DNA from: a virus | IMG/VR virus record: IMGVR_UViG_3300021338_000067 | Span: 1 to 41,343 of that record | Strand: one strand, 5' to 3' | DNA: 41,343 nucleotides | Shown here: positions 14,685 to 32,996 of the stretch, piece after piece | How the letters are laid out: every line of letters starts with the position of its first letter | Numbering within the stretch: position 1 is the first letter of the stretch | The notes under the pieces: model-generated | Seen by the model: the letters and a program-made list of their open reading frames with translations, nothing else | The model's database searches: none | Told to the model about the DNA's origin: nothing | Translations under genes and position numbers: made by a program

Positions 14685-14992
14685 GACACCGCCATCAGCC
14701 AGTGATGTGCCCGCGCGGATGGCCCGCCATGCTTCACCGGACGACCCAGCTCCCATACACGCCCCAACAATTCCAGCCTCCCCTGTGGATCCAAGCCGAC
14801 GATCGCCACCGGCAACTCCGCGCTAGCACGTGGGTCGACGAGAACACCGAGTTCGCCGATGACCGCCGTCTGCTCGTGAAAAATCACACTCACATCCACC
14901 GGCTCGCCACCATCAGGCGTGAAGACCGCCACATCGCCGAATGCCGTCAGTTGGGCATCGGCCACTGCTTGCCTAACATCCGCCCAGCTCAT
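14681..14992 (-). CDS. Head-tail attachment protein (FII-like)
   Basis: A 103-residue protein containing AFGDVAVFTPDGGEPVDVSV, IFHEQTAVIGE and GRVWELGRP, a pattern like the Phage_attach family (lambda gpFII, about 117 residues). FII-type proteins join the filled head to the tail. It is the first connector gene after the lysis cassette and overlaps its neighbours on both sides by 4 nt. Confidence 0.7.
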   Translation of the reverse strand: MSWADVRQAVADAQLTAFGDVAVFTPDGGEPVDVSVIFHEQTAVIGELGVLVDPRASAELPVAIVGLDPQGRLELLGRVWELGRPVKHGGPSARAHHWLMAVS

Positions 14993-15354
14993 TCGTCAGC
15001 CTCCCGCTCGGTGCGGTCGAACCGAGCCTCGAATCGATCGAGCCGACGCTCGTGCTCCTTCAGAGTGATCAGGACGCGCTCGTGTGCCTCGGCGTTCTGC
15101 CGGGCGACTGCGCGGACCTGATCCAGCTCCCGATCGCTGATCAAACTGCGTTCTGTGATCACCGCCAGTGAGGTCGTGTTCACCTGCACGGATTCCAGCT
15201 TCTGCTCGATCCGATTGACCTTTTCGTTGCCCAGGTAGGCGATCAAGGCGATCAGTATTGGCAGCAGCGCACCGTGAAGCTCGACGCGCGCGGCCTGCAT
15301 CGCACGAGCGATGAGCGACTGATCCGTCGCACGACGACCAGTCGGGTTACTCAT
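14989..15354 (-). CDS. Membrane-anchored coiled-coil protein, holin-like
   Basis: A 121-residue protein. The start at 15354 is chosen because the upstream frame lies in Rz1. One hydrophobic helix (ELHGALLPILIALIAYLG, about 26-43) precedes a long charged coiled coil (NRIEQKLESVQVNTTSL... ERRLDRFEARFDRTERE). It overlaps the end of Rz1 by 8 nt, so it belongs to the lysis cassette. A holin, antiholin or other lysis accessory is possible; a single-TM coiled-coil protein of this kind is not diagnostic. Confidence 0.65.
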   Translation of the reverse strand: MSNPTGRRATDQSLIARAMQAARVELHGALLPILIALIAYLGNEKVNRIEQKLESVQVNTTSLAVITERSLISDRELDQVRAVARQNAEAHERVLITLKEHERRLDRFEARFDRTEREADE

Positions 15355-15682
15355 CGGACTGCTGCTCCCGCGCCCATCGTCTGAGCGCGGCCTTGTCGGC
15401 CTCGCATGCGAGCGCGGTCTCTGCGGATTGCGCGGCCCATGCTGCAATGTCGGCCCAGGTGTCACCGCGCAACGGCGGCACAGCCTGCCCCTGCAGCCAC
15501 TCTGCCGGCGGAAGGAGATAGATCGTCCGAGTCTGCACCGGCTCCGGAGTATTGACACAACCCACGCAATACAGCGGCAGGCACAGGCTGATGACTACAC
15601 GCAGACGTGTCCGCCCGGACGACGCGAACAACCTCGCGGACACGTTGTTCACCGACTTGGCGCCGAGCTTCTCGCACGGCAT
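15347..15682 (-). CDS. Rz1-like outer membrane spanin lipoprotein
   Basis: A protein of about 111 residues encoded in a different frame largely inside Rz. A signal peptide (RTRLRVVISLCLPLYCVG) leads to a Cys near residue 42, followed by VNTPEPVQTRTIYLLPPAEWLQ. Short, Pro-containing lipoproteins nested in an Rz gene are the hallmark of Rz1 o-spanins, which fuse the outer and inner membranes in the last step of Gram-negative lysis. The lipobox (CVGC) is atypical at position -3. The start is uncertain: ATG at 15682 or 15691. Confidence 0.78.
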   Translation of the reverse strand: MPCEKLGAKSVNNVSARLFASSGRTRLRVVISLCLPLYCVGCVNTPEPVQTRTIYLLPPAEWLQGQAVPPLRGDTWADIAAWAAQSAETALACEADKAALRRWAREQQSDE

Positions 15683-15890
15683 TGATCCCATCGCGTAATC
15701 GCCGCTCCGCCACCAATCGGTCAATGCTCTCTTGTGCTGCGACGTTGGCACTCCGCAACGTTGCATTACGCTCGACAGCCTGATCGAGTTGCAATGCGAG
15801 ATAACGTTGGCGCTGGTGCTGAAATGCCACACCAATCGAAGCCACCGCGAGTAGAGCGAGGACATACTTGGCTGCCGCGGGCGCGAGCAC
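15462..15890 (-). CDS. Rz-like inner membrane spanin
   Basis: A type II membrane protein: TM helix (AAAKYVLALLAVASIGVAF), periplasmic coiled coil (QRQRYLALQLDQAVERNATLRSA..., ERRLRDGINAVREARRQ), and a C-terminal region with CSHQPVPAAVLRGLCQ, the signature of i-spanins. The GTG at 15890 is taken as start; an alternative GTG at 15962 would overlap the transglycosylase by 71 nt. It embeds Rz1 in another frame. It acts with Rz1 in outer membrane disruption. Confidence 0.8.
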   Translation of the reverse strand: MLAPAAAKYVLALLAVASIGVAFQHQRQRYLALQLDQAVERNATLRSANVAAQESIDRLVAERRLRDGINAVREARRQVGEQRVREVVRVVRADTSACSHQPVPAAVLRGLCQYSGAGADSDDLSPSAGRVAAGAGCAAVAR

Positions 15891-15891
15891 G

Positions 15892-16737
15892 CTAAAGCGC
15901 GCCAAGCCGCATTTGCAGATGGAACTGCCAGATTGACCGGACGTAGGTTGAGGTTTCTGCACTATGACGGCCGGTTACCTGGGGCAGGCATGCCACGATA
16001 GCGGCGTATCCCCGAGCGTCGCCGCAAACCTGCTGTGCGGCGAGCAAATGCCCGAAGCCGGCGTTGTAGCTGGCGAGCGCAAGACTGTGCCGGTCCCACT
16101 CCGGGCGCGGAGCAGACCAACCGCCGCGCAGCTGCGCCATGTATGCCGCTCCAGCCTCAATCGCCGGCCCCGCGATGTGAGGCGAAATGGCACCGAACTG
16201 CATCCGGCGACTTATCTCGGCCCATGTGGCGGGCATGAACTGGGCAATTCCGGCCGCACCCACCGGAGACACGGCTGCAGGGTCGAGCCGGCTTTCCTGC
16301 CAGTACTGCGCCTTGAGAATCTCCCAGCCGTGGGCTTCAGACGCATCAGGCAACCACAACTCGGCGGCCCCGCGTATCTCATTGTCATACGTCGTCGGCG
16401 CCGGCTGCGCCATCACCTGACCAGCGAAGAGAAACAGCCCGATGATCCATGCACCGAAATAGATCGCCCCGCCGACAGGTTCGGTTAGCACATGACTCAA
16501 CAGATCACGAAAGTCCAGGTGCAGGACCACGTCGCGTAACCGCAACAGCAGGTAGACCAGGACGACACCGAGCCCGAATCGGATCAAGTCGATCGTCAGG
16601 CCGATACCGAACAGGGATTGGCTGCTGCCGCGGCCCAGATCCTCCGGCAACACCAGCAGCCCACCAAGCGCGCCACCGATCACGAACACCACGAACAGCA
16701 GCAACCAATGTCGTTGAAGAGCTTGAAACCGTGACAT
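15892..16737 (-). CDS. Transmembrane lytic transglycosylase (endolysin-holin fusion)
   Basis: A 281-residue protein with a strong start at 16737 (GGAGG 6 nt upstream). The N-terminal 115 residues hold three hydrophobic segments (WLLLFVVFVIGGALGGLLVL, LIRFGLGVVLVYLLLRL, GGAIYFGAWIIGLFLFAGQVMAQ). The C-terminal half is an SLT/lysozyme-fold lytic transglycosylase: catalytic Glu in YWQESRLDP, then SPVGAAGIAQFMPATW and LASYNAGFG. It cleaves peptidoglycan. The membrane part suggests a fused holin-like or tethered signal-arrest-release endolysin. Its position between the capsid and connector genes is unusual. Confidence 0.88.
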   Translation of the reverse strand: MSRFQALQRHWLLLFVVFVIGGALGGLLVLPEDLGRGSSQSLFGIGLTIDLIRFGLGVVLVYLLLRLRDVVLHLDFRDLLSHVLTEPVGGAIYFGAWIIGLFLFAGQVMAQPAPTTYDNEIRGAAELWLPDASEAHGWEILKAQYWQESRLDPAAVSPVGAAGIAQFMPATWAEISRRMQFGAISPHIAGPAIEAGAAYMAQLRGGWSAPRPEWDRHSLALASYNAGFGHLLAAQQVCGDARGYAAIVACLPQVTGRHSAETSTYVRSIWQFHLQMRLGAL

Positions 16738-16816
16738 CGTGCCTCCGATATCTGATGGAGTGGATGCCGCCGGATGACGACCCATCATCCGGCGACCTGA
16801 CCTTCAGCCGCCGGGC

Positions 16817-19903: not shown

Positions 19904-21546
19904 GCAGCACCCCCAAGAGCCTCGTTAGGAGCACCAGCGCCACCGTCATCCGGGTCAATCTTCGGACCCGAACTCGCGGCACGGCGCCCGACTTCCAGCG
20001 GCTGCGCCGGGTCGAGCTCCAGCTCCCGCATGCGCTTGAGTTCGTATGCGCGCTGCTCCAGGACTTCTTCCCAATCGTCGCCCTGCTCTGCGCACAATCG
20101 CTTCAGCGACGTGGTGTACATTCCGTACGCCAACCCGCCCGCCTGACGTTCCTTGAGCTCGTCGACGTGACCCTTCGGCGCACCAATCCACTCGCAGCCA
20201 CACCAGGCGGTCTTGGCTTCGATGAACCCCGGCGCGCCCGCCGGCATTTCGACGTCAGCGCGATCAAACGCCTCCTCCAGCCAGGCAGCATAGATCTGGG
20301 TCGCGTACTTGTTTGCGATGTGATGCCGACGACCGGCAAAGAAGCGCCACGCCTGATTCATGGCGACGCGCGCCGCGCTCATGTTCGTCTTCGAGTAGTC
20401 GCGTGAGACCTCCTCGTAGCTCATGTTGAATCCGGCCGCGAGATGGCGCAGCGACGCGGCTTCGAACTCGGCATAACTGGCGGTCGGATGCTCGGCAGCG
20501 AGCAGGCGGAATTTCTCGCCCGGCACCAAGTGAGGTACCCGCAAGCCATTCAGCGTGGCGTACCCGTTTTCCTGGTTGAAGGCGTTTTTTGCCTTCAGGT
20601 AGTCCTTCATCGGGCTCGTGGAGCCCCCAAGCGCGGCCGCGACGTCCTCCGTTGGCATCTCCGACTCGATGACCGCGGCGTACATTGCATTCGCGATCGC
20701 GGCCTCCAGGGCTGCGCGCTTGAACCGGCTGAGCACGCGCATCTCCGCCAGCACGGACACAAACCCGGGCTTTCCACGCGTCTGGCCCGGCTGTTCCTGC
20801 TCAAACACGTGGATCACGCGCCGGCGGCCCCACGGGGTGAATGCCGGGACGCGCTGCCAGCTGTACGCGTTCCGGCTGCCCATCAGCCCGACCTCGCTCG
20901 GGTGCGCCTGACGGATGTGATAGGCCTGCGCCACACCGTATTCGGCGAGCTCTACACCGCGACGCAACCGGTCGGTATCCGCGATGTCCCAGGGATTGCT
21001 CAACCGGTCCGGCTGAATCATCTGAATCGCAGTTGCGTACTTGTCCGGCCGGCGAGGCAACCACTCAATCGTCGCCAAAATCTCAGAGGACGACAGCATG
21101 TAGCTACGGTAGGCCTGCGCGAGTAGCCCCGCGAAATCCAGCCGGCGGGAAGCATCGCAGTAGTTGTCGATGTCGTTGGCATACAACCGCCAGCGCGCCT
21201 CAACGTGACGGCTCCACTCCTCCGCCCACTCGCGCGACAGACCCAGTGCCTTGTAGTCGGGCTTGCAGACCAGGCGCAGGCCCGTGCCGATGACGCGGTC
21301 GATCGCCGTCTGCACGGCGCCGGACGCAACACCGTTGTTGCGGACCTGCTCGCGTGTGCGGGCCGTGAGAGTCTCCCACTCCGGCAGAATTTCCATGTCA
21401 GGGCTGGATAGCCCCGGATTCCAGCTCGCCAGGTCGGGGTCCCGTCGATCAGCCGCGGCGTGGACGGAGCGTTCCAGCACCATGCGAGCAGGCTGCCCGT
21501 TCGGATGCAGGATCGGTAGCGAGTCCCGAACAGCTGGCAGGCTCAC
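19900..21546 (-). CDS. Portal protein (lambda gpB family)
   Basis: A 548-residue lambda-type portal (gpB is 533). It has the typical early segment (TARTREQVRNNGVASGAVQTAIDRVIGTGL), RVIHVFEQEQPGQTRG, and AGFNMSYEEVSRDYSKTNMSAAR, the last being highly characteristic of the family. It forms the dodecameric ring at the packaging vertex. The start codon is GTG in a GTGA overlap with gpW. Confidence 0.95.
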   Translation of the reverse strand: MSLPAVRDSLPILHPNGQPARMVLERSVHAAADRRDPDLASWNPGLSSPDMEILPEWETLTARTREQVRNNGVASGAVQTAIDRVIGTGLRLVCKPDYKALGLSREWAEEWSRHVEARWRLYANDIDNYCDASRRLDFAGLLAQAYRSYMLSSSEILATIEWLPRRPDKYATAIQMIQPDRLSNPWDIADTDRLRRGVELAEYGVAQAYHIRQAHPSEVGLMGSRNAYSWQRVPAFTPWGRRRVIHVFEQEQPGQTRGKPGFVSVLAEMRVLSRFKRAALEAAIANAMYAAVIESEMPTEDVAAALGGSTSPMKDYLKAKNAFNQENGYATLNGLRVPHLVPGEKFRLLAAEHPTASYAEFEAASLRHLAAGFNMSYEEVSRDYSKTNMSAARVAMNQAWRFFAGRRHHIANKYATQIYAAWLEEAFDRADVEMPAGAPGFIEAKTAWCGCEWIGAPKGHVDELKERQAGGLAYGMYTTSLKRLCAEQGDDWEEVLEQRAYELKRMRELELDPAQPLEVGRRAASSGPKIDPDDGGAGAPNEALGGAA

Positions 21547-21740
21547 AGCGGTACCCCGATCGGCCGCCGCCGACAGATCGCTGCGCCCACCTTGCGCTCC
21601 AGCCGCTCGATCTGCCGAGCGATGAATGCCAGGTCCGCCCGATCCAGCGTGCTGCCGTCTTCAAGCGTGACACGCTGCCCCTGCAGCACCTGTTGTTCAG
21701 CCAGGCGGTAGGCGGCAAGGCGTTCGGCGTCGGTACTCAT
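21543..21740 (-). CDS. Head-tail joining protein gpW
   Basis: A 65-residue protein (lambda gpW is 68). MSTDAERLAAYRLAEQQVLQGQRVTLEDGSTLDRADL fits the gpW fold (helix, short hairpin with dG.tl..adl, helix ending in QIERLERKV). It plugs the portal after packaging. In lambda the W gene follows terminase A directly; here 2.4 kb of cargo separates them, so gpW is now the first gene of the W-portal-tail block and needs its own promoter or readthrough. No good Shine-Dalgarno is seen at 21740; a TTG at 21752 is an alternative. Confidence 0.85.
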   Translation of the reverse strand: MSTDAERLAAYRLAEQQVLQGQRVTLEDGSTLDRADLAFIARQIERLERKVGAAICRRRPIGVPL

Positions 21741-21763
21741 GCCGCGCAGCAAAGCACGGCACT

Positions 21764-21793
21764 CGCGACATGCTTTACCGAAAACGTGTCGCG
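21764..21793. promoter_or_regulatory. Inverted repeat upstream of gpW
   Basis: CGCGACA (21764-21770) and TGTCGCG (21787-21793) are a perfect 7-bp inverted repeat with a 16-nt loop, 24 nt upstream of the gpW start. It lies in the 190-nt divergent gap between gpW and the plus-strand cargo gene. The dyad is a candidate activator site, for example for the Mor-like protein encoded just upstream, but nothing in the sequence links the two directly. Confidence 0.4.
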
Positions 21794-21930
21794 GCTGCCC
21801 TGAACCTACCGGTGGGCGGGTCTGGACCGCGACGCCGCCAAAATTTCATCTGACTTTCGGCCCGACTGGCGGCGCTTCCCTCCAGGCGAGATGCGCGGCC
21901 CTCTGATAAGAGGGGAAGGGTGAGTTAAAC

Positions 21931-22338
21931 ATGAGCGAACCAACCGCAGTTGCACTTGCGCTAATTGCTTTTTGCGCGCTGCTCGCGATGTCCGCCATAT
22001 GGCGCTTCAGCACTGTTGAAGATGTCATGAAAGTGCTCAGCGGCGTATCGGGGCTGATGGGCATCGTCGTAGGCGCAATCATCACGTACTACTTCACGAA
22101 CGAGAAAGTGGAGCAGGCTGAGAAGCGTGCAGCGACGCTGGAAACGTCGTTGACTTCCGCACAGACACAGCTGACCGCGCTAGCGGATGAACGGCAGGAA
22201 ATGAACAGGTTGGCAGCACTCGTCTCCAGTCAGGTCGCCGCGAATATTAACTGCGAGAATGCTTCCGACCCGCGATGCCATCTGCCCAACGAGATCATCA
22301 TCGCCCCGATTCATGCGGACGACGAGGACCCGGAATGA
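21931..22338 (+). CDS. Cargo membrane protein: two TM helices and coiled coil
   Basis: A 135-residue protein on the plus strand, against the head operon. Two hydrophobic helices (VALALIAFCALLAMSAIW and VLSGVSGLMGIVVGAIITYYF) are followed by a coiled coil (NEKVEQAEKRAATLETSLTS, then LTALADERQEMNRL) and a short C-terminus containing two Cys (NCENASDPRC). GGGAAGGG lies upstream of the ATG, and a small hairpin (CCCTCT/AGAGGG, 21899-21914) sits in the leader. Base composition is visibly less GC-rich than the structural genes. No family recognised; its stop overlaps the next start, so the two are translationally coupled. Confidence 0.78.
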   Translation: MSEPTAVALALIAFCALLAMSAIWRFSTVEDVMKVLSGVSGLMGIVVGAIITYYFTNEKVEQAEKRAATLETSLTSAQTQLTALADERQEMNRLAALVSSQVAANINCENASDPRCHLPNEIIIAPIHADDEDPE

Positions 22339-22562
22339 CAGTGGCGAAAAAGAAGACCAAGTATCAGTTCATCGGAACGGGCGCACTGGTCCAACTCATT
22401 GGCCTGATTCTGCTGTTTATCTTTCCGATCGGCACAATCGCAGGGGTGATACTTCTTGTGGTCGGCTCGCGTATGTCGCGCCGATTGCTGTGCGGGAACT
22501 GCGGCAACGGAGTCACCAAAGATTCAAAGATATGTCCGCACTGCAGCGCGCGCTTCGCATGA
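22335..22562 (+). CDS. Cargo membrane protein with C-terminal zinc ribbon
   Basis: A 75-residue protein in an ATGA overlap with the preceding cargo gene. A basic N-terminus (MTVAKKKTKYQF) leads to two closely spaced hydrophobic segments (GALVQLIGLILLFIF, GTIAGVILLVVGS), then a zinc ribbon CGNC...CPHC (C-x2-C-x11-C-x2-C). Such small membrane zinc-ribbon proteins occur in many genomes with no assigned function. Its coupling with a TM-coiled-coil protein suggests a membrane complex, possibly superinfection exclusion; this is inference. Confidence 0.75.
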   Translation: MTVAKKKTKYQFIGTGALVQLIGLILLFIFPIGTIAGVILLVVGSRMSRRLLCGNCGNGVTKDSKICPHCSARFA

Positions 22563-22574
22563 GCATATCGAGAA

Positions 22575-22622
22575 GGCCGCGAGCACCAGGCCGGCAGGAA
22601 AACCCGATTCGTGCACGCGGCC
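22575..22622. repeat. Inverted repeat between convergent cargo genes
   Basis: GGCCGCG (22575-22581) and CGCGGCC (22616-22622) form an inverted repeat with a 34-nt loop, in the 69-nt gap between the convergent cargo genes. No T-run follows on either strand, so terminator function is doubtful. Confidence 0.25.
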
Positions 22623-22631
22623 TGCCCTATC

Positions 22632-23447
22632 TCAAAATCCCAACGCTGCAGTAATCATGATTGCCCACCCATCGACGTTGTCGCGAGTCGTATAGTCTTC
22701 GGAGAGCAATCCCTCAGGCGGTACCGATCCTTCCTTCACGTCGTCAGCAAGGACCAACTGGTCGTTGTGTCGCATCCAACCGACACCGACATTGAGCGCG
22801 ACTTTGTTGTTGAAATTTTCGTCGCCGCGCCATCCACCGAAAAGCAATCCGACGATGTACCCCTTGATTCCGTCATCGATGTCGAAGAACCCGAGGAACG
22901 GTGAGCAGGTGATACCCCACGAACTGGTGTAGACAGCCGTCTCCGTGGTCGGCCCCCAACCAACCTTACTAGGCGTTCGCCAGCAATAAAAGTTGTAATG
23001 AACCTCAAATCCGAGAGCGGTTGTGGTCTCCGTACCATAGGCTTCCAGCGTGTCATCGGATCGAATGCGCGTGTCCTTGGAATCCTCAAGGACTTCCTCG
23101 TCATAGGTGAGCACAAAGAGCGCTGGCGCAAAATGGAATCCCTTCAGTGATTCCCCAGTGTCTGGGGTGTCGACTGACTGCGTGCCGATCTTCGGCTTTG
23201 GGGCGCCGGGCGGTTGCGTCGATGCCTCTCCAGTTGCTGCGACCGTCGTGTCTTCGGCCGTCGTTTCGGCGGGCGCCTCCTCGGCATTCGTTGCAGTGGT
23301 TGTCCCATCGTCTGTCGTTGCGGCCACAGGCGCAGCGTCCGTCATTGGAGGATCAGCAATCTCCTCTTCTGCGGCTGCGACAAACGACATCGAAGCCACC
23401 AGCATGACGACTGTGGGCCGCAAGCGGCCCCATCGTGAATTGAGCAT
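22632..23447 (-). CDS. Cargo outer-membrane-like beta-barrel protein
   Basis: A 271-residue protein starting at 23447. A signal peptide (RPTVVMLVASMSFVAAAEE) is followed by an Ala/Thr/Glu-rich linker (about 30-95) and a C-terminal half of alternating aromatic strands (FHFAPALFVLTYDEE, GFEVHYNFYCW, GYIVGLLFGGW, KVALNVGVGWM) ending in Phe, as outer-membrane barrels do. Two Cys may form a disulfide. No family recognised. Lower GC than the phage genes and its position inside the head operon mark it as cargo; it may alter the lysogen surface. Confidence 0.75.
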   Translation of the reverse strand: MLNSRWGRLRPTVVMLVASMSFVAAAEEEIADPPMTDAAPVAATTDDGTTTATNAEEAPAETTAEDTTVAATGEASTQPPGAPKPKIGTQSVDTPDTGESLKGFHFAPALFVLTYDEEVLEDSKDTRIRSDDTLEAYGTETTTALGFEVHYNFYCWRTPSKVGWGPTTETAVYTSSWGITCSPFLGFFDIDDGIKGYIVGLLFGGWRGDENFNNKVALNVGVGWMRHNDQLVLADDVKEGSVPPEGLLSEDYTTRDNVDGWAIMITAALGF

Positions 23448-23728
23448 TTCCCCACTCCCTGGAAAAAGTCGCCCATCGCGACACTTCACCATACGAAGTT
23501 TTCGGGAAAAACCGGACATCTAGCCCGCCCGGCGTGCGGATATGCATTCATGTTCCGGCAGCGTGTTCCACTGATTCGCCATGCGGCATGCCCAAGGAGT
23601 GGCTGAAGTTCCGGAATCCGCGGGTTCAACCAATTGAGGTTGATGCATTCAGTAATTTCGTTCTGCAGGCCCCTATCGGGCTGCCGGGCACCTGTGCCCG
23701 CCATGTGATCCAACTCAAGGAGTGCGAT

Positions 23729-24010
23729 ATGAATGTCATAGCAACGAAGGGCAAGGCCCTACCGCAGTACACGCTGTACTACGACGCAGACAAAAACCTC
23801 GCCGACCTTCCGCTTTCGGTGCAGCAATGTCTCGAAGCGATGGGAGAAGTGACGTTTCAGCGGACGCGAGACCTTACCGGGTGCATGGACACCCATAGCC
23901 GAACAGTTGTGGAGGCCATCCGAACTAAGGGCGCCTACCTGGAAAAGACTAGCGTGGACATCACCGTGTCGATCGTGCCAGTTGGGGGCGATCCCGGCCA
24001 GCAGCGTTAG
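23729..24010 (+). CDS. Small cargo protein of unknown function
   Basis: A 93-residue protein starting at 23729 with AAGGAG 7 nt upstream; the frame extends further 5' but without a comparable start. The sequence (MNVIATKGKALPQYTLYYDAD, LPLSVQQCLEAMGEVTFQR, then AYLEKTSVDITVSIVPVGGD) is mixed alpha/beta with two Cys. No family recognised. It forms a single-gene unit with a strong terminator downstream, the usual form of a moron. Confidence 0.7.
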   Translation: MNVIATKGKALPQYTLYYDADKNLADLPLSVQQCLEAMGEVTFQRTRDLTGCMDTHSRTVVEAIRTKGAYLEKTSVDITVSIVPVGGDPGQQR

Positions 24011-24089
24011 CGTATCTACCTCGGCAACTTCGGTTTGCCACCGCTGACCTCGGACGCCGTTCAAGGTCATGGTGTTCGCTGGGCACGAC

Positions 24090-24120
24090 CCCGCCGGCGC
24101 CATCGCCGGCGGGGTTCTTG
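24090..24120 (+). terminator. Intrinsic terminator of the cargo gene
   Basis: A perfect 11-bp stem, CCCCGCCGGCG / CGCCGGCGGGG (24090-24100 and 24105-24115), with loop CCAT and followed by TTCTT on the plus strand. It lies 80 nt downstream of the small cargo gene. The minus-strand side has no T-run, so it should not stop leftward late transcription. Confidence 0.8.
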
Positions 24121-24175
24121 ACGCTACCGCCAATCCACGACCGATACGCTCGCAACACAACGCTCGCCGGCGTGA

Positions 24176-24307
24176 TCAATCAGCGCGCCCACGGTTTCCG
24201 CCAGATGCATCGATCACGCTGGCGCCGATCAGCGCCAGCACGGACTCCCGATGCACGCCACCAATGACTCGGTCGCCAACGCGCACAACATTTGCACTTT
24301 CCGTCAC
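24176..24307 (-). CDS. Tiny ORF coupled to the Mor-like gene
   Basis: A 43-residue frame beginning with a GTG that overlaps the stop of the Mor-like gene (GTGA), the coupling used throughout this operon. The sequence (VTESANVVRVGDRVIGGVHRESVLALIGASVID) has a short beta pattern resembling an SH3-like strand pair. It ends before the cargo island. Family unknown; the coupling is the main support. Confidence 0.42.
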   Translation of the reverse strand: MTESANVVRVGDRVIGGVHRESVLALIGASVIDASGGNRGRAD

Positions 24308-24615
24308 GACTCACGCCGCTGACGAACGATCCGCTGAATTTGCCGGGCTGACAGACCGGTGCGTAGACGAATCACGCGCATGGCCACGGCGTGACCGTGC
24401 TGGCGCGACACGTCGGTGTACTCGGCTAGCAGGCGCGCATTGCGCTGCTGCGTGGAGCGCGTACAGCCAATATAGAGTCGGTCGCCCCCACACTCGTTGC
24501 TCAACTCCGCGTAGATCTGCTGGGCTACGCGGTCCGCGTCTTCGAGGGAGGCCCGCAAGGTCTTCATGACCACACGCCGCGTCAAGCGCCGGATGATGTC
24601 CTCCGACTCGGTCAC
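24304..24615 (-). CDS. Mor-like transcription activator
   Basis: A 103-residue protein. ECGGDRLYIGCTRSTQQRNARLLAEY followed by a C-terminal helix-turn-helix (LRTGLSARQIQRIVRQRR) fits the Mor/C activator family of Mu-like phages (typically a GG..lYiP segment, then HTH). Here the usual Pro of YIP is Gly. It starts with GTG overlapping the terminase stop. Mor proteins activate middle or late promoters, so it may switch on the downstream W-portal-tail block. The residues around the Tyr-Ile strand and HTH support the call. Confidence 0.68.
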   Translation of the reverse strand: MTESEDIIRRLTRRVVMKTLRASLEDADRVAQQIYAELSNECGGDRLYIGCTRSTQQRNARLLAEYTDVSRQHGHAVAMRVIRLRTGLSARQIQRIVRQRRES

Positions 24616-26609
24616 ACCTTCGCCCAGGATGTGTCTGCATCTTCCTTCGTGACCGTGGCGCGATCGCGCTCCAGCAGGCTGCGCTGCCGCAGGTTGCGTT
24701 CCCGCTCGGCCCAGGCCTCCTCACGCCACAAATGCAGCCGCAGATGCCGGGCAGCGTGGATCTGGTAGGCCTCGCAGTCCCAGCCCTCATTGGCGCGGCC
24801 GGCCTTCTTGGTCCAGACCTCCACGCCCCGCCCCTTGGGCATGCGGATTTCGCTGGTGAGCTGCTGCAGGTAGGCATCGCTAACGCCCTCGTACCAATGC
24901 AGCACGCCGGGACCCTTGCGCTTGTCGCGGCGGAACTTCATGCGGTTGGCGAGCACATCCTTGGCACGCTGCGTGCCGACGATGTAGATCTGCAGGCCGT
25001 ACCGGTTGTGCTTGCCCCTTGCATTGACGTCAACGGGCTTGGGCTTGGTGTAGATCTCGCGCGTAGTCTGGCGGGCCGTCTGGAGCCGTTCGGCGTCGCC
25101 CTTGATGGCGATGACGGGCCGACCCGCGCCGCGACGATCCCTCACGTAGCTGTAGACGGCGTCGGATGTCTGGCCGTCTGATGCGTCGATGGTGAGCAGT
25201 TCGGTGGAGAGTGCGCCGCCGAGGCGGTGGCGATAGTCAGCCCACACGACGCGGTCCAGCTCATCCCACACGGGGCCGAGCCGTACTTCGCCGGTGGCGC
25301 TATCGATCACGGTTTCGGTGGGGTTGCCGGCGAGTTCCTCGTGGAACACCAACCAGCTTTCCTGACCGCGGCCGTGCGCGCGTACGACGACGGCCAGGCG
25401 GTCATGCTGCACATCGCAGGTGGCGATGAGCACCAGGCCGCCGGCGGGCACGGTGCCGGCGGGGTAAGTATCGCCAAGCTGGCGCAGCAGCTCGATTTCC
25501 GGGATGCCGGATTTGGGCTCGTAGGCCTCGCCCAGGCTGGAGTTGTAGAAGACGATCATTTCGCCCTGATCGCCTGCCTTGAGCTGTTCGTTGGCCTTGA
25601 GGAATGTTTCCGCCAGGCCGGCAAGGCTGCTTGCGGACAGCGTGGACATCAGTTCGTTGAGATACCAGCCGCGGGCGCGACCGGCGGGTGCCGTGGCCTC
25701 CCAGTGACCGCGCAGCACGTTGGCAATGCGCTCGTCATTGGTCCAGGGCTGTTCGCAATGCGGGCATTCGTAGTACGCGGATTCGGGGTGGTGCCGCCCG
25801 AAGCGCGGATGCGGGTTCTCCGCGTCCTTCGCCCATTTGACCTGATCGAACCGCAGGTAGTCGGCCACGCCGCAGTGATGGCACGGCACCATCCAGCGGC
25901 GCTTGTCGGTGTGCTCCATCTCCTCGACGATCGTCGAGTGACCCGCGATGCTGGGCTTGCCGCCGATGAACTTGCGGGCGTTGCGGTAGGCCTTGGCCCG
26001 CTCTTTGATCAGCTCGACGGAATCACCGCCCTTGCCCGCCCCACCAATTGCGCGCGCGCAACTGTCTGGTTCCTCGACGAAGATGAACGGCGCGGATTCC
26101 TGGGTCACGTCGCTGTCGGAGTTTGACCCGACGAGCATGAGCCAGCCGCCCGGGAATTCCTTCCAGGTGGCTGTGTTGTCACCGCGACGCGAGCGCGTTT
26201 CCACCAGCGGCCGAAGATCGGGCGAGGCTTCGATGGTCGGCCGGAACTTGGAGCGATTGAATTTGGCGGCGTCACCGGCGACCGGGAACATGGCGATCAT
26301 GCGGCCGAGGCCGTGCGCAATCACGTAGATCATCACGTTAAGCAGCACGCCGATCGTGTAGCCCACCTGCTGGCTTTTCTGGCAGACGCCCGTGTCCAGG
26401 CCGCAGTCATCGGAGAAGAAGTCGCAGATCTCGCGCAGGTACGGCGTGCGCTCGAACCGGAACGGCCCTGGGATGGGGTCGCCCGGCGGGCGCACGTGCA
26501 GGCGCTCGGCACACTCGGAGACGGTTTCGTCCGGCGCCGGCCGGAACGCCGCCCCCCACGTCCGATTGAACGCGGTCGCAGTGCTGGCGCTGCACTCAAT
26601 CTGCGGCAT
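24612..26609 (-). CDS. Terminase large subunit (gpA family)
   Basis: A 665-residue gpA-type terminase (lambda gpA is 641). The start at 26609 (MPQIECSAS) overlaps the small subunit by 14 nt. The ATPase has KSQQVGYT (78-85) as adenine/Walker A-like motif and FIFVEEPD (Walker B acidic residues about 179-180). A zinc-binding pair CHHC...CPHC lies mid-protein. The nuclease domain begins at LIATCDVQHDRL, with TIDASD further on. It cuts cos ends and drives DNA packaging. Confidence 0.95.
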   Translation of the reverse strand: MPQIECSASTATAFNRTWGAAFRPAPDETVSECAERLHVRPPGDPIPGPFRFERTPYLREICDFFSDDCGLDTGVCQKSQQVGYTIGVLLNVMIYVIAHGLGRMIAMFPVAGDAAKFNRSKFRPTIEASPDLRPLVETRSRRGDNTATWKEFPGGWLMLVGSNSDSDVTQESAPFIFVEEPDSCARAIGGAGKGGDSVELIKERAKAYRNARKFIGGKPSIAGHSTIVEEMEHTDKRRWMVPCHHCGVADYLRFDQVKWAKDAENPHPRFGRHHPESAYYECPHCEQPWTNDERIANVLRGHWEATAPAGRARGWYLNELMSTLSASSLAGLAETFLKANEQLKAGDQGEMIVFYNSSLGEAYEPKSGIPEIELLRQLGDTYPAGTVPAGGLVLIATCDVQHDRLAVVVRAHGRGQESWLVFHEELAGNPTETVIDSATGEVRLGPVWDELDRVVWADYRHRLGGALSTELLTIDASDGQTSDAVYSYVRDRRGAGRPVIAIKGDAERLQTARQTTREIYTKPKPVDVNARGKHNRYGLQIYIVGTQRAKDVLANRMKFRRDKRKGPGVLHWYEGVSDAYLQQLTSEIRMPKGRGVEVWTKKAGRANEGWDCEAYQIHAARHLRLHLWREEAWAERERNLRQRSLLERDRATVTKEDADTSWAKV
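26048..26061. repeat. Dispersed palindrome TTGCGCGCGCGCAA
   Basis: A perfect palindromic copy of TTGCGCnnGCGCAA inside the terminase large subunit gene, in the region encoding the DSCARAIGG segment. Confidence 0.6.
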
Positions 26610-27339
26610 GGTCCGCCACCGGCAGCGAGATTTGCGACAGGCGTTCGATGAGTCCGCGGGCGAGCTGCGAGCAAATGCGGCCCAGCGCCTCATCCAGCGC
26701 CGCACGCGACGCGTGATCGGCAAAGGCCTCGGGCGACAGCTCGATGACCGCCCGTGCCGCCCGCGTGGGCGCATCGCCCTCCCAGGCGTCGATCTCCGAC
26801 CGCGCCGCCAGCGTGGCGGCACTCCACACAGGCTCGATCTCGGCCGCGGGGATCAGCGCGCCCGTGCGCTCCAGCCGCCGGGCGCGGCGGTCGAGGGCAT
26901 CTTCAAGTTGGCTCAGGTATTTCGGGTCACGCTTCGGGTTCGCGCGCAGGTCCTCGTAGATCGCCGAAAGCTCCCTGTCGATGGCGCGAGCCTGATCACG
27001 CGGCGCCTCGCGCCCCCCGCCCCCATCGGCTGGGGCGGCCTGCGGCGCGGCGTGGGCACCTGGTGACGTCCAACCCTTCAGCCGATCCTTGCCGGCCCGT
27101 TCCAGGAGCCAGTTCACGACATCCAGCAGGCGGTAGCGGTGCCCCTGCCCCTGCTGCCGCGCCGGCTGGGCGATCGGACACGGCGGCGTCTCGCGAATCC
27201 ACTGCCGTACGGCGTCGGCCGACCACTCGCCCAGGTCCGCCTCGCGCAGCGCGTCCACCAACTGGCGGCCGGACAGCATCTGCTCCGAATTCTTGGCCAG
27301 GACTGGCAGCAGTTTTGGATAGTTGCTCACACCGTTCAC
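26596..27339 (-). CDS. Terminase small subunit-like (Nu1/DUF1441)
   Basis: A 247-residue protein. The N-terminus holds a winged-helix-like DNA-binding region (SGRQLVDALREADLGEWSADAVRQWIRE, then GHRYRLLDVVNWLLER), followed by a coiled-coil and helical C-terminus (AIDRELSAIYEDLRANPKRDPKYLSQLEDALDRRARRLE). This fits small terminase subunits of the Nu1/DUF1441 type. It directly precedes gpA and would bind cos. The start is GTG at 27339, with another GTG three codons later as alternative. Confidence 0.78.
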   Translation of the reverse strand: MNGVSNYPKLLPVLAKNSEQMLSGRQLVDALREADLGEWSADAVRQWIRETPPCPIAQPARQQGQGHRYRLLDVVNWLLERAGKDRLKGWTSPGAHAAPQAAPADGGGGREAPRDQARAIDRELSAIYEDLRANPKRDPKYLSQLEDALDRRARRLERTGALIPAAEIEPVWSAATLAARSEIDAWEGDAPTRAARAVIELSPEAFADHASRAALDEALGRICSQLARGLIERLSQISLPVADHAAD

Positions 27340-27357
27340 GCCAGATCACCTACAGCA

Positions 27358-27385
27358 TTCACGGCAATCGAGCCAAAGCCGTGAA
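27358..27385. promoter_or_regulatory. Inverted repeat upstream of the terminase operon
   Basis: TTCACGGC (27358-27365) and GCCGTGAA (27378-27385) are a perfect 8-bp inverted repeat with a 12-nt loop, 19 nt upstream of the small terminase start. A third half-site TTCACGCC overlaps the start region (27335-27342). It may be an operator of the packaging operon or part of the cos region. Confidence 0.4.
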
Positions 27386-27457
27386 CCCATACGGAAACTG
27401 CTGCAGCTAGCGAAATTCCGCGCCCGTGCTTACCCGCGTGCATTGGCAGGGCCGGAA

Positions 27458-27745
27458 GGACCCGCTGATTTCGGGTCCGGCCTGGGTCCGACTGAATCGG
27501 CATTGGGTCCGGGTGTACCTGGACCCACTTTTTCCCGTCGTTGCGGGCTAAACGGCACTGGGTCCGGGTAGTCCGGGTAACAACTCGCACATAGGGGGGG
27601 TGCGATGGTGAGGGGTGTTCGGCTCGCGTGCGCGCGCGGGCGGGCGTACGCGCACGAGGGAGGCCGGCCCCTTGGACCCAGCCCGTCACGACGGCATTTG
27701 ATACCCGGACCCAAGGTGGACCCAACCCGGACCCAACCCGGACCC
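27458..27745. repeat. 11-bp-spaced GGACCC/GGGTCC iteron array
   Basis: The non-coding stretch 27340-27816 carries at least eleven copies of GGACCC or its complement. GGACCC occurs at 27707, 27718, 27729 and 27740 with exactly 11-bp spacing (unit about CCCGGACCCAA), and also at 27458, 27521 and 27674. GGGTCC occurs at 27473 and 27484 (11 bp apart), 27505 and 27560. The two clusters face each other as a large inverted arrangement. Helically phased repeats suggest cooperative protein binding: replication origin, partition site or terminase site. The stretch has no convincing gene. Confidence 0.7.
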
Positions 27746-27800
27746 AACGCCGCGAATCGCGCGCCGGCCGCTGGCCCACCACCAGCGAGACCGCCACGCG

Positions 27801-27814
27801 TTGCGCATGCGCAA
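27801..27814. repeat. Palindrome TTGCGCATGCGCAA, intergenic copy
   Basis: A perfect 14-bp palindrome just after the primase stop. The pattern TTGCGCnnGCGCAA also occurs at 13272, 26048, 36491 and 38829, with a one-mismatch copy at 19706. This is the only copy outside a gene. Confidence 0.75.
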
Positions 27815-27816
27815 AC

Positions 27817-30087
27817 CTAGAAGACATCGTCGACCTCCACCGCCGAGGCCGGGGCTGGCGCTTCGGCCGGCCGCTCGTACACGCGTGGCCGGCTGGGGTC
27901 TTCCTGCTTGCCGAGCCGTCGCTGTGCCCAGGCAAGCCGCGTCATGATCCGACCCATGCGGCCGGATTCCTGCTGCGTATGCCGGCCGAAGTCCACATGC
28001 ACGGCCCACCGCAGCAGGTCGGAGACGCTCGCCCGCTGGATGCGTCGGCCGGGGCCCTCCACATACCGCAGGGTGATCGACTTGCTCTGCGGCGGGTACT
28101 GCTCGTCGCCGCCCTTCCCGGCCAGCCACTGGGCCACCGGCACCGCCCAGGGATCGTCCTGGTAGCGGGCGTCCTGCTCTTCCTTGGCCGACTCGGGCAC
28201 ATGCCACCAGTGCACGCCCGCTTCGCAGGCCTCGCGGTAGCGAACGCTGGCTTCGGCCCACAACTGATCCCGACGCTGGCGCAAGCCTGAGAGATCGACG
28301 AACCCGGCCCGCACGGGCAGGAAGCGGCGGGCGCCGGTGTGATCCCGCAGGTACTCGCTTTCGTTGGTCGTGCCGACGAACACGCACTGCCGGGGATAGT
28401 CCCGCGCCACGCGGCCATAGCTCGGCCGGTACGTGTCCTTCTGGGCCGACAGCCCGGCCTTGACCTTGTTCACGTCCGGCTTGGACAGCGCAGCGATCTC
28501 CGCCAGCTCGATGACCCACTTGCCGCCCAACGCCTGGTAGAAATCCTTGTCGCCAAACGGCTGACTGGTGTCCATGAACCACTCCGGGCCCACCAGCTCG
28601 CGGATGCCCGAGCTTTTGCCCAGGCCCTGCGAACCCTCCAGCACGACCATCGTGTCCACCTTGCAGCCCGGGTGGCGCACACGGGCCACGCAACTGAGCA
28701 TGAACAGCCGGCTGACCGCCAGCGTGTAGTCGTCGTCGGCGGCGCCAAAATACGCCGTGAACAGGCCATCGAGGCGCGGCACACCGTCCCACTCCAGCGA
28801 GTCGAGGTACTCGCACACTGGGTGGAAGGCATAGCGGGTAGCCACCATCGTGACCGTCTCCGCCGCCAGCGACTGGGAGACGCTGATGTCGTAGCTGTAC
28901 GGGTGCCCGAACCAGGCCGCCACCTCGCTCAGCTCCGCGTCCGTCACCTCCCGGCGAACCCCGCCGAACGGTGGCTCGCGCGTCATGACGATTCGGTTCG
29001 CGAAGGCGTCCAGGCGCAGCAGCCCCGTCCATTCCGGGTCCCGCTCCAGGATCAGCGCAATGTTGTGCTGATTGGCCTTGAACCCGCCCGACCGCTTGGA
29101 GTACGTGAGCTGCTGGCGCCACTTGCCGCCGCGCGCACGCTTGGCGGCGCCGACCACAATCTCCCCCACCGCATCGAGCCCCTGCTCGGCGTGCATGTCG
29201 TTGAAGTCGGTCCGATCCGCGCGGTTCTTGAAGTTCGGCCAGCACCAGGCGCCCTTCACTGCTTTCGCGGCATCGATGCCCTTGCGCTTGCCCGGATTGC
29301 CACGCGTGCCGTGGTCGTCATCGCAGCACACCACCATCCGGTGGTGGCGGTACTGCTCGCGCCAGGCCTCGGCCACGGCCTGCAGGTTGCCGGCGTCAAA
29401 GCACACGATCACCGGCCAGCCCGTTGCCATGCATACGCTGACCGCCGTCGCATACCCCTCGGCCAGGCAGACGATGACATCGTCGCCGTCGACGTCCAGC
29501 TCGCCGACGATCGAGAAGGCGCCCTGCTTCGGCGTGCCGGTGAGAAAGCGCTTTTCGCCGTCCGCCTGGATGAACTGCAAGCCGACCAGCTTGCGCTCGA
29601 TCGAATACAGCGGCACCACCAGCGACTCGCGCATGACACGCGCGCCGGCCAGGTTGATGCCCTTGCGGTCCAAATATGGCGTCCGTCCATGCTCGCGCGC
29701 ACGCGACCAAAGTCTGCGGGCCCGTTCGGCGCAGTCCTCCGCGGCTTCCTTGGCGTCCTTCGCGCGCTGCGCGTCCATCGCCTTGCGATGCTTCGCGATC
29801 TCCTCAAGCTGCGATTTGTCCAGCTTGCTGTCCGGCGGCTCGAACTTGCCCCAGGTATCGGCCCAGTAGTTTTTCCACCAGCCGATGACCATCGAGCCGC
29901 CATCGCGCAGCGTGATCAGCTTCGCGTAATAGCGGCCCGTGTCCTTCTTTGGCTGCTTGCCCACCACCTCGCGGGACACCGGGCAATACGTGCGCTTGTC
30001 CAGCTCCAGGGACTCGACAATGAGGCCTTCGGCCGCCAGTTGATCGATCGCATGCGCGATCGCTTCATTCGTGCTGGTCACGGTCAC
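27817..30087 (-). CDS. Toprim-VirE primase/helicase
   Basis: A 756-residue replication protein. The N-terminal part (about 40-110) is a primase-like region. A Toprim domain follows, with VIVCLAEGYATAVSV (Glu210), IVCFDAGN and the acidic MVVCCDDD (256-258). The C-terminal half is a VirE-type helicase domain with Walker A EGSQGLGKSS (484-493) and CVFVGTTNESEYLRD. It primes and unwinds phage DNA. Its GTG start overlaps the upstream stop. The iteron array lies beyond its 3' end. Confidence 0.9.
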   Translation of the reverse strand: MTVTSTNEAIAHAIDQLAAEGLIVESLELDKRTYCPVSREVVGKQPKKDTGRYYAKLITLRDGGSMVIGWWKNYWADTWGKFEPPDSKLDKSQLEEIAKHRKAMDAQRAKDAKEAAEDCAERARRLWSRAREHGRTPYLDRKGINLAGARVMRESLVVPLYSIERKLVGLQFIQADGEKRFLTGTPKQGAFSIVGELDVDGDDVIVCLAEGYATAVSVCMATGWPVIVCFDAGNLQAVAEAWREQYRHHRMVVCCDDDHGTRGNPGKRKGIDAAKAVKGAWCWPNFKNRADRTDFNDMHAEQGLDAVGEIVVGAAKRARGGKWRQQLTYSKRSGGFKANQHNIALILERDPEWTGLLRLDAFANRIVMTREPPFGGVRREVTDAELSEVAAWFGHPYSYDISVSQSLAAETVTMVATRYAFHPVCEYLDSLEWDGVPRLDGLFTAYFGAADDDYTLAVSRLFMLSCVARVRHPGCKVDTMVVLEGSQGLGKSSGIRELVGPEWFMDTSQPFGDKDFYQALGGKWVIELAEIAALSKPDVNKVKAGLSAQKDTYRPSYGRVARDYPRQCVFVGTTNESEYLRDHTGARRFLPVRAGFVDLSGLRQRRDQLWAEASVRYREACEAGVHWWHVPESAKEEQDARYQDDPWAVPVAQWLAGKGGDEQYPPQSKSITLRYVEGPGRRIQRASVSDLLRWAVHVDFGRHTQQESGRMGRIMTRLAWAQRRLGKQEDPSRPRVYERPAEAPAPASAVEVDDVF

Positions 30088-30374
30088 GTGCCCGGCTCCG
30101 CCAGCTCTGATAGCACCATCAAAGCCACCGTGGCGGCCGGCTCCAGCTCAAGGCGGCACGTGCGCACGCTGACCCACTCGCCCGCAAGGCGCACATACAC
30201 CGGGTAGTTCTGCCCGGCCGAGCCCGGCAGCGGGCTGGACCGATAGATCCGCACACGCCCGCAGGGGCTTTGCAGATAGCTCGTGCCCTTCACCCGCTGC
30301 CAGCCCGGCATCAGGTCTTTCATCGCCGCTTGTGGAGTCGGCGACTCCGGCGCGGAATCGAACAAGTCGGTCAC
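30084..30374 (-). CDS. Small early protein of unknown function
   Basis: A 96-residue protein in the leftward early chain, with GTGA overlaps at both ends. It contains GWQRVKGTSYLQSPCGRVRIYRS and YPVYVRLAGEWVSVRTCRLE, an all-beta pattern with two Cys. It sits directly before the primase gene. No family recognised. Confidence 0.7.
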   Translation of the reverse strand: MTDLFDSAPESPTPQAAMKDLMPGWQRVKGTSYLQSPCGRVRIYRSSPLPGSAGQNYPVYVRLAGEWVSVRTCRLELEPAATVALMVLSELAEPGT

Positions 30375-30559
30375 GGCGCCTCCGCCTGGATCTGACGATC
30401 CATGAAGCAGTCGGAGCAGATCGCATACTCCGGCCGGTCGTTGCGGCCGTGGCAGTCAGCGCACAGCGGCGAATACTCCGACTTCGGCCGGCGGTTCGTC
30501 AGCGCCTGTTGCAGATGCAGATCCTCCAGCACCTGCGCGCGGTCGGCCACATCAGCCAC
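30371..30559 (-). CDS. TraR/DksA-type zinc finger protein
   Basis: About 62 residues from GTG at 30559 (GGAGGGG 6 nt upstream), overlapping the previous gene by 8 nt. A helix (VADVADRAQVLEDLHLQQAL) is followed by a four-Cys finger CADC...CSDC (C-x2-C-x13-C-x2-C). This is the layout of TraR and phage DksA-like proteins, which bind the RNA polymerase secondary channel. The longer frame to 30709 lies in another frame of the upstream gene. It may modulate host transcription early in infection. Confidence 0.75.
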   Translation of the reverse strand: MADVADRAQVLEDLHLQQALTNRRPKSEYSPLCADCHGRNDRPEYAICSDCFMDRQIQAEAP

Positions 30560-31187
30560 GGTCCGCCCCTCCAATCTGCGCCACCGTCGATGTGCCGGCC
30601 TGCACCGCCAACACCCGCGCCTCCACGCTGGCCAGCGCGGCCTGCGCGTCGCGAATTTCCTTGAGCAGATGCGGCAGGCGGCGCAGGTCGTCGGCATCGA
30701 TCCGGCCATCCGCCAGGGCCTGCGACAGCACGCTGAGGCACTCGCCCGTTTCCGTCATCACCCGGCCAACCGCCTCGCCGTCGGTGCAGGGCGCCGCCTC
30801 CGGCGACATCGCGCCCAGAAAGCCATAGCGCCGCGCCAACGCTGCCCGGCAATCGCCGGCGTAAGGCTCCGGCAGCGCCGACACCCACGCCTCCTCCAGC
30901 ACCACGGGCAAATGCAGCGAGTCGATCACGTAGCGCTTGACCTGTGTGCGCAGCCGCTCCACCCCCTTCGCATACACCACATGCGAGGCGGACTCATCCG
31001 GCGGCGTCAGCTCAATCGAGCGGGCGTGTTCCGGCACCAGGCGGTGATACGCATGCGCGATCGCGACGGCGAAATCCACCGCCGTGAACCGCGTCTCGCG
31101 GATAGCCCGGTCGCGGTAGAAGATCAGCGCGTCCAGCCGAGTGACGTGGACAGGCCCACAAGTGGACGTAGGCGTCGGGTCGTTCAT
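30552..31187 (-). CDS. Early regulatory-like protein, unknown family
   Basis: A 211-residue protein, first gene of the leftward early block (ATG at 31187, TGAGG upstream). A helical N-terminus (FTAVDFAVAIAHAYHRLVPEHAR) is followed by QVKRYVIDSLHLPVVLEEAWVSALPEPYAGDCRAALARRYGFLGA. Proteins with this 'LEEAWV.ALP.PY...C...LA.RYGFLGA' segment are common in prophages near the regulators. A CII-like role is possible by position, but no HTH is obvious. The C-terminal helices (LRRLPHLLKEIRDAQAALASVEARV) look coiled. Confidence 0.72.
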   Translation of the reverse strand: MNDPTPTSTCGPVHVTRLDALIFYRDRAIRETRFTAVDFAVAIAHAYHRLVPEHARSIELTPPDESASHVVYAKGVERLRTQVKRYVIDSLHLPVVLEEAWVSALPEPYAGDCRAALARRYGFLGAMSPEAAPCTDGEAVGRVMTETGECLSVLSQALADGRIDADDLRRLPHLLKEIRDAQAALASVEARVLAVQAGTSTVAQIGGADRG

Positions 31188-31352
31188 GACTCAACCTCAG
31201 TCGCATGGAAAACCAGGACCGAATCCGCGCACAACGCCGCGCTTGCGCAAATCGAGCGCATGCTAAAGGCGAATCCGATAGGGAAAATGGACACCGGGCG
31301 GCGCCTCATGCAGCGTCCAACGCTCCAAACCCAACAACGGAGCGAACGCAAG

Positions 31353-31508
31353 ATGGACAAACAGGAACTCATCACCCGCGTATGGCTGGCACTGATCGCC
31401 TCGGGCAACATCAGACCCGACATGCCCGGGGAAGCGGTGGCCGCGATCATCAGCCAGCACATGAACCAACATGCGGTGCTCATGCAGGCCCCGCTGCCAG
31501 GCATGTAG
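31353..31508 (+). CDS. Small plus-strand protein of unknown function
   Basis: A 51-residue frame (MDKQELITRVWLALIASGNIRPDMPGEAVAAIISQHMNQH) with GGAG 10 nt upstream of ATG. It lies between the cro terminator and the leftward early genes, on the opposite strand. A longer start at 31260 is possible. The sequence looks protein-like, but no family is recognised. Confidence 0.5.
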   Translation: MDKQELITRVWLALIASGNIRPDMPGEAVAAIISQHMNQHAVLMQAPLPGM

Positions 31509-31580
31509 CGGCACGGCAGACGCAGACGGCCTCCTCGATACACTGGCAAACCCTGTCGCCACCACCCGAGGAGGCCGACC

Positions 31581-31826
31581 ATGCCCACACCAACCGAGTA
31601 CGAATCCGACCTCAACGCCATCATCACCGTTATGGCCGTAACCCTTGGCGCAGTAGCGCATCAATCAGGCACACTCGAGGCCGTGATTCAGGACCTTCAC
31701 ACCGCCCGCCAGAAGTTCGCAGCGAGCCCGGACACCCCGAGCAAAGACCGCTTTCTGCAAGCACTGGACCGCATGATCGCCGTGTTCGACCAAACGCATC
31801 GTCACCCGCTGAATCAGCGCCACTAG
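31581..31826 (+). CDS. Small plus-strand helical protein
   Basis: An 81-residue protein with a strong Shine-Dalgarno (GAGGAGG) upstream of ATG 31581. It is helical throughout (EYESDLNAIITVMAVTLGAVAHQSG, LEAVIQDLHTARQKFAAS, KDRFLQALDRMIAVFDQTHRH). It lies in the same orientation as the preceding small gene and opposite to cro. No family recognised; it may be an immunity-region accessory. Confidence 0.68.
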   Translation: MPTPTEYESDLNAIITVMAVTLGAVAHQSGTLEAVIQDLHTARQKFAASPDTPSKDRFLQALDRMIAVFDQTHRHPLNQRH

Positions 31827-31908
31827 ACTCCAGCCCCGCCAACCAACGCGCGACCGGCGCGGCCCATGGATCGACGGCGGTGCTCATGAGCCCCAATCCA
31901 GCACAAAT

Positions 31909-31941
31909 AGAAAAGCCGACCGGCTGGGGTGACCGGCCGGC
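31909..31941 (-). terminator. Intrinsic terminator downstream of cro
   Basis: On the minus strand, GCCGGCCGG and CCGGTCGGC pair over 9 bp (one G-U) with a 9-nt loop and are followed by TTTTCT. It lies about 50 nt after the cro stop. It would end the short cro transcript unless antitermination occurs, so the leftward early genes beyond it are probably controlled separately or by a lambda-tR1-like mechanism. Confidence 0.78.
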
Positions 31942-31987
31942 AATGGCACAGACGCCGGAGGGCACCCTGGGGAGACTCGGGGGGACA

Positions 31988-32203
31988 TCACGCCGCTTCT
32001 TCCGCAGCAGCTGCGGCGCCTGACGGCGGGTGATCCCGCAGCCACGCCTCCAGCGCATCCAGCTTGGAAGCGCCGGGGTCTGCAATCACACCGCGCCCGA
32101 ACTTGGAGAGCCAGAAGTAACGCAGCCCCGTGTCATCCACAATGGCTTGGTACTCCCCTCGGCGCCCTGTCAGAGCTTGGCGCAAGCGTTCAGTGCGGTT
32201 CAT
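31988..32203 (-). CDS. Cro-like repressor
   Basis: A 71-residue protein transcribed divergently from cI. A helix-turn-helix is visible (TGLRYFWLSKFGRGVIADPGASKLDALEAWL), after a short N-terminal helix (TERLRQALTGRRGEYQAIVDD). The Ala-rich tail is probably disordered. Position and size fit a Cro protein competing with CI at the shared operators. The -10-like element lies so close to the ATG that the transcript may be nearly leaderless. Confidence 0.8.
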   Translation of the reverse strand: MNRTERLRQALTGRRGEYQAIVDDTGLRYFWLSKFGRGVIADPGASKLDALEAWLRDHPPSGAAAAAEEAA

Positions 32204-32938: not shown

Positions 32939-32996
32939 GCGTAAAACAGCCCTCGCGTAATCCTCATACGCAGGGCGAAACCAAACAGGAGCTCGC

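Follow-up and report, generated by a model that had tools for sequence, protein, structure and literature searches.

Results

Organization of the Region Between TerL and gpW

The window, i.e., the whole stretch of DNA that was analysed, is the IMG/VR record IMGVR_UViG_3300021338_000067 and comprises 41,343 bases, with an ATG at one end and the stop codon of the integrase gene at the other. Head and tail genes occupy the minus strand between the gene for the terminase small subunit (27339) and approximately base 284, and further genes encode a VapE-type primase and a protein with a ParB domain. The phage is temperate, as is evident from the genes for an integrase, an S24-type repressor, and a CII-like protein. 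The features of importance for this study are the following:

21543..21752, minus strand: gpW head-tail connector, at the downstream end of the gap (head-tail adaptor by PHROG 118, E 3e-12; Pfam gpW sub-threshold)
21753..21930, no strand: divergent intergenic region gpW/O1, 178 bp, defined by position only
21931..22338, plus strand: O1, 135 aa, TM segments 5-23 and 33-51, then a coiled coil; GC at codon positions 1/2/3 of 0.59/0.43/0.68
22338..22562, plus strand: O2, 74 aa, one TM segment, C-terminal CxxC...CxxC zinc-ribbon-like end
22563..22631, no strand: hairpin between the convergent genes O2 and O3, stem AGGCCGCG...CGCGGCCT, predicted -27.6 and -34.2 kcal/mol for the two strands, without a T tract
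22632..23447, minus strand: O3, 271 aa, signal sequence, Ala/Thr/Glu-rich linker, C-terminal beta domain (about 101-271), terminal Phe
23448..23728, no strand: divergent intergenic region O3/O4, 281 bp, defined by position
23729..24010, plus strand: O4, 93 aa, soluble, strong AAGGAG ribosome site; GC at codon positions 1/2/3 of 0.62/0.41/0.70
24088..24115, plus strand: hairpin after O4 with a perfect 12-bp GC stem, fold of -31.2 kcal/mol for 24076-24130 (I7)
24304..24615, minus strand: Mor-family activator-like gene (Pfam Mor 27.5 bits, cut-off 24.9; PHROG late activator, E 1e-4)
24612..26822, minus strand: terminase large subunit (TerL), upstream boundary of the gap (GpA ATPase, E 1.8e-61; nuclease, E 7e-71)
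30552-31187, minus strand: CII-like activator
32246-32938, plus strand: S24-type repressor
40219-41343, plus strand: integrase

TerL probably starts further downstream than at the listed GTG (26822). Read from gpW to TerL, O1 and O2 (plus strand) are followed by a hairpin, O3 (minus strand), a divergent region, O4 (plus strand), a second hairpin, and the Mor-family gene (minus strand). The first-pass annotation had described a cargo island of 2.4 kb with four ORFs. The four ORFs are indeed present, but the gap is 2.86 kb long, and the Mor-family gene at 24304-24615 had been missed.

Positions 20027-34522 of the window (14,496 bases), which include the whole insert and both junctions, recur with 100% identity in a second IMG/VR contig, IMGVR_UViG_3300021341_000048. 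This argues against a chance misassembly, although the two contigs might be derived from one sample or from related samples and are thus not fully independent. Two further observations concern the remainder of the record. At its very start (1-282, plus strand) a DUF2845 protein with a signal peptide is encoded opposite to the tail-gene strand, which is either host flank or another accessory gene. A lysis set (SLT endolysin, Rz, overlapping Rz1, and a TM protein; 14989-16788, minus strand) directly follows the major capsid gene and lies between the head and the tail genes.

The Joint Is Closed in Nearly All Relatives

Four TerL proteins were aligned, and a search with this alignment yielded 80 loci from bacterial genomes and 80 loci from IMG/VR, while a scan of the bacterial genomes with the single TerL sequence had retrieved no match. 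The 144 loci that hold both TerL and the portal gene were used as relatives and were not dereplicated. The distance from the TerL stop to the portal start is 3,066 bp in the window, compared to a median of 268 bp in these relatives. It is at most 300 bp in 102 of them, 301-700 bp in 38, 701-1100 bp in three, and larger than 1100 bp in a single case. A closed joint is also found in the annotated relatives Marinobacter phage PS3, Pseudomonas phage Turba, Rhodobacter phage RcMeacham, and Achromobacter phage Mano, in which a small connector gene and the portal gene come right after TerL. The assumption of the first-pass annotation that terminase and gpW are normally adjacent is therefore correct, and the insertion into the TerL-gpW joint is real.

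In the gaps of 301-700 bp that were inspected as examples, either the connector-like gene is larger (L059) or one more small ORF is present (L044, L170), unlike the cargo described here. In one related phage (L166, 4732-9420) the same slot is occupied by a different cargo of 4.7 kb (gap 4,688 bp), with same-strand ORFs that resemble tail-fibre or lectin-type proteins and gpW after them. Inverted repeats near the edges of the island (I5, 15 bp, 87%) were set aside as chance, because several such repeats are present in the region.

Composition and Coding Potential of the Insert

The insert has a GC content of 0.57, compared to a mean of 0.646 for the record, and it represents the lowest 2.1 kb of the record; the lowest window elsewhere has a value of 0.593. 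The GC content at the third codon position is 0.63-0.70 for O1-O4 and thus 1.6-3.0 standard deviations below the average of 26 phage genes (0.78). The lower GC content compared to the neighboring genes, which had been noted before, could therefore be confirmed. As the low GC content is confined to O1-O4 and the Mor-family gene is phage-like in composition (third-position GC 0.79), the foreign part consists of O1-O4 and extends from approximately 21.9 to 24.1 kb (about 2.1 kb). All four genes are intact ORFs with ribosome sites and exhibit the coding-type order of codon-position GC (third > first > second), and the ends of the insert fall between genes.

The four proteins had been said to belong to no recognised families, and in scans with Pfam, PHROGs, NCBIfam, and PADLOC none of them indeed surpassed a curated cut-off. 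It had also been suggested to search related prophages for the same set of four proteins. In IMG/VR, homologs of O1-O4 were found only in the identical second contig, apart from one additional O2 match (L006), which covers just 21 zinc-ribbon residues in an unrelated phage and was rejected.

O1 and O2, a Coupled Pair of Predicted Membrane Proteins

The stop codon of O1 and the start codon of O2 overlap in ATGA, in agreement with the view of the first-pass annotation that the two genes form a coupled membrane pair. However, O1 contains two TM segments, and not a single one as had been assumed. The two proteins most likely form an inner-membrane pair. The C-terminal end of O2 resembles Pfam Zn_ribbon_3 below the threshold (E 2.6e-4). 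Weak matches of O1 to spanins, holins, RmuC, flagellin, and a 2TM effector are all restricted to the TM or coiled-coil parts and are below the curated cut-offs. No match to O1 was obtained in the phage collection or in plasmids, and a match in one genome (G378, E 8e-4, 28% identity, 74 residues) was regarded as coiled-coil noise.

Judged by its position, the region 21753-21930 should contain the promoter of O1, and possibly also a new promoter for gpW and portal. The hairpin between O2 and O3 might be a two-way terminator.

O3, a Candidate Outer-Membrane Protein With Chromosomal Relatives

The best start of O3 is at 23447 (MLNS...), which is preceded by a GGGAG ribosome site, and not the in-frame upstream start at 23519. 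In the leader of O3 (23448-23530, minus strand) two short hairpins are each followed by five T; the number of such elements in the region is not above chance.

Two homologs of O3 were found in bacterial genomes. The first, in genome G252, is 47% identical (E 1.4e-55), and the C-terminal domain is conserved, including the very end of the protein (...MITAALGF in O3, ...MISASLGF in the homolog). G252 is in the same class as a Rudaea genome and thus gammaproteobacterial. The neighboring genes are a lipoprotein-like gene and genes that we take, from their translations, to be of the ArsR/arsenite-methyltransferase type (arsM/arsR), with hemE and a gltD-type glutamate synthase gene presumably nearby, and the surroundings are those of an ordinary bacterial chromosome. 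The second homolog, in genome G838 (E 3.5e-39), adjoins a gene for a DUF4410 lipoprotein, and its C-terminus is cut by an apparent transposase gene (L183, 961-2202). Phage genes were not seen around either homolog, and O3 had no match in the phage collection or in plasmids. The family was detected in one of the 369 genomes that were sampled for the class, in one of 300 genomes of one order, and in none of 295 genomes of another order, and G838 is its sole carrier among 119 genomes of its taxonomic family. These few carriers among the sampled genomes indicate that the O3 family is rare.

Outer-membrane barrels typically show the pattern seen in O3, namely a phenylalanine as the last residue and hydrophobic residues in alternation. 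The first-pass annotation had proposed a structure prediction for the barrel-like protein. An AlphaFold2 model computed with two sequences contains about eight strands (residues 104-269), but the mean pLDDT is 49.8. Foldseek searches with this low-confidence model were led by Ail (E 0.013) and OmpW, but with E values of at least 0.013 and TM values below 0.3 none of the fold matches was significant. Although small outer-membrane barrels thus head the list, this was not counted as evidence for membership in a family, and scans of Pfam, PHROGs, and NCBIfam revealed no match of O3 to Ail/Lom family models. The signal sequence, the terminal Phe, the predicted beta-meander, and the two chromosomal homologs together suggest that O3 is an acquired barrel gene. 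It is quite likely that the protein is a small outer-membrane barrel, and the gene has probably been taken from a bacterial chromosome.

O4 and Its Hairpin

O4 homologs were detected neither in IMG/VR beyond the second contig nor in G252, and the phage collection contained only an insignificant match. The predicted structure has a pLDDT of 39.9. Residues 7-76 can be aligned with YcgL (PF05166) at 10.4 bits, compared to 7.4 bits for the best of 200 shuffles, but this family was chosen after the fact and the Pfam scan gives no match for O4, so that the resemblance is a lead only. The hairpin downstream of O4 had been described as a perfect terminator. The stem is perfect over 12 bp, but only a weak T tract (TTCTTG) follows, and the terminator scan did not assign a score to it; it is a probable terminator. 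Sites with a sigma-70 consensus were not found between 21500 and 24700 (0 versus 1.0 expected) in a scan that covers one promoter type only.

The Mor-Family Gene

The gene at 24304-24615 scores above the Pfam cut-off for the Mu Mor/late activator family (PF08765). Unlike Mu Mor, it is located between TerL and gpW, and it overlaps TerL by four bases (GTGA), so that the two genes are coupled. A tblastn search of the loci of the relatives gave no match; the relatives have gpW at this position. The gene is probably an addition separate from O1-O4. A short ORF (24176-24307, minus strand) overlaps and follows it.

Discussion

The head operon of this temperate phage is split by a cargo island, as had been proposed in the first-pass annotation, and this view is borne out by the comparison with the 144 relatives, by the composition, and by the chromosomal relatives of O3. 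Morons are extra units located between genes that are neighbors in related phages. They carry a promoter and a terminator, differ in composition, and in some cases act in lysogenic conversion (PMC4378225). The island has both the position and the composition of a moron, and with the morons of lambdoid and Mu-like phages it shares the site between normally adjacent genes, the different base composition, and one or more genes that originate from bacteria. However, morons are usually single genes (PMC4378225), while this island comprises four genes on both strands and has no recognised promoter. The weak T tract, the missing promoter consensus, and the low confidence of the barrel model also count against this reading, and as the cargo is carried by no second phage, its spread and benefit are presumed. 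In addition, O3 has the same direction as the late genes, and its transcription could thus be late. On balance, the island is probably accessory ("moron"-type) cargo in which two or three units have been stacked in one slot, with O3 being host-derived.

In this scenario two or three units (O1-O2; O3; O4 with its hairpin) would have accumulated between TerL/Mor and gpW, and O3 would be derived from a gammaproteobacterial chromosomal gene. Its product would be exported via the signal peptide, and the BAM machinery would most likely insert it as a small barrel into the outer membrane, where it could alter the cell surface, in principle as lambda Lom does. Lom is an example of a phage-borne small outer-membrane protein (PMC4198210). 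The gene for Lom, a member of the Ail/OmpX/PagC family, is carried by a phage, as is O3, and the product of O3 would likewise be a small outer-membrane protein, perhaps with eight strands. O3 differs from Lom/Ail in its sequence, its long Ala/Thr-rich linker, its genomic site, and the absence of a Pfam family match. At most, therefore, O3 works like a Lom-type protein, while by sequence it is outside of the Lom family. The expression of the cargo in the prophage and a benefit for the lysogen are predictions, like the location of O3 in the outer membrane.

The four genes need not belong to one system, because O1 and O2 were sought in both genomes with O3 homologs and are absent, and neither O1 and O2 nor O4 is present near these homologs. 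The economical reading is that two or three separate accessory units share one slot. The first-pass annotation had seen the genes as a single envelope system that would suit a surface alteration in the lysogen or superinfection exclusion. An exclusion system of this kind, expressed in the lysogen, would block superinfecting phages by O3 masking or replacing a receptor and O1-O2 acting on DNA entry at the inner membrane. The proposed span of inner and outer membrane does hold for O1, O2, and O3 as a prediction, and moron-encoded superinfection-exclusion proteins are known, for example HK97 gp15 (cited in PMC11436027). However, the genes are on mixed strands, the O3 homologs occur without O1 or O2, and O4 is a soluble protein for which no relative was found. 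Nothing points specifically to exclusion: the matches to defence families are weak coiled-coil or TM noise; PADLOC yields only a 2TM effector model for O1 (E 1e-3), which is confined to the TM part. A single system with an exclusion function is unlikely.

It is also improbable that the insert is an inert passenger, i.e., a set of recently captured host genes that have no function in the phage and are decaying. The occurrence in one phage only and the disruption of the G838 homolog by an apparent transposase gene would fit, but four intact ORFs with ribosome sites and coding-type codon positions would not be expected. An even more speculative view combines the insert and the Mor-like gene into one rewired unit. 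The opposed cargo genes would uncouple terminase from the head operon, the Mor activator, made together with TerL, would turn on a new late promoter in 21753-21930 for gpW and portal, and the cargo would be a new envelope-exclusion system based on an uncharacterised family of outer-membrane barrels; we consider this very unlikely.

A role of O1-O2 as lysis genes (spanin or holin) that were displaced into the head region could be derived from PHROGs, in which O1 weakly resembles Rz-like spanins (E 4e-4) and holins. However, a separate lysis set of the phage is encoded on the late strand, with an SLT endolysin (15892-16788), Rz (15462-15962, E 1.9e-10), and an overlapping Rz1 (15347-15865, E 8.7e-13). 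O1 contains two TM segments instead of the single N-terminal one of an Rz-type spanin, it is encoded on the strand opposite to the late genes, and its partner O2 is a zinc-ribbon protein and not a lipoprotein, which makes this explanation highly improbable. A false joining of bacterial DNA to the phage contig would explain the foreign composition and the chromosomal homologs of O3, but it can hardly be reconciled with the second contig across both junctions, even if that originates from the same or a related sample, or with intact ORFs and insert ends between genes.

The insert is thus best regarded as an ordinary moron-type insertion of uncharacterised genes, a kind of phenomenon that is well known, so that the surprise is modest. 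It exemplifies that the terminase-gpW joint, which is closed in nearly all relatives, can open to cargo, with L166 as one further case. The phage has probably captured a gene that is rare among bacteria and likely encodes an outer-membrane protein, from a family without an assignment in Pfam, NCBIfam, or PHROGs. If it is expressed, it would represent one more way for a prophage to alter the surface of its host.
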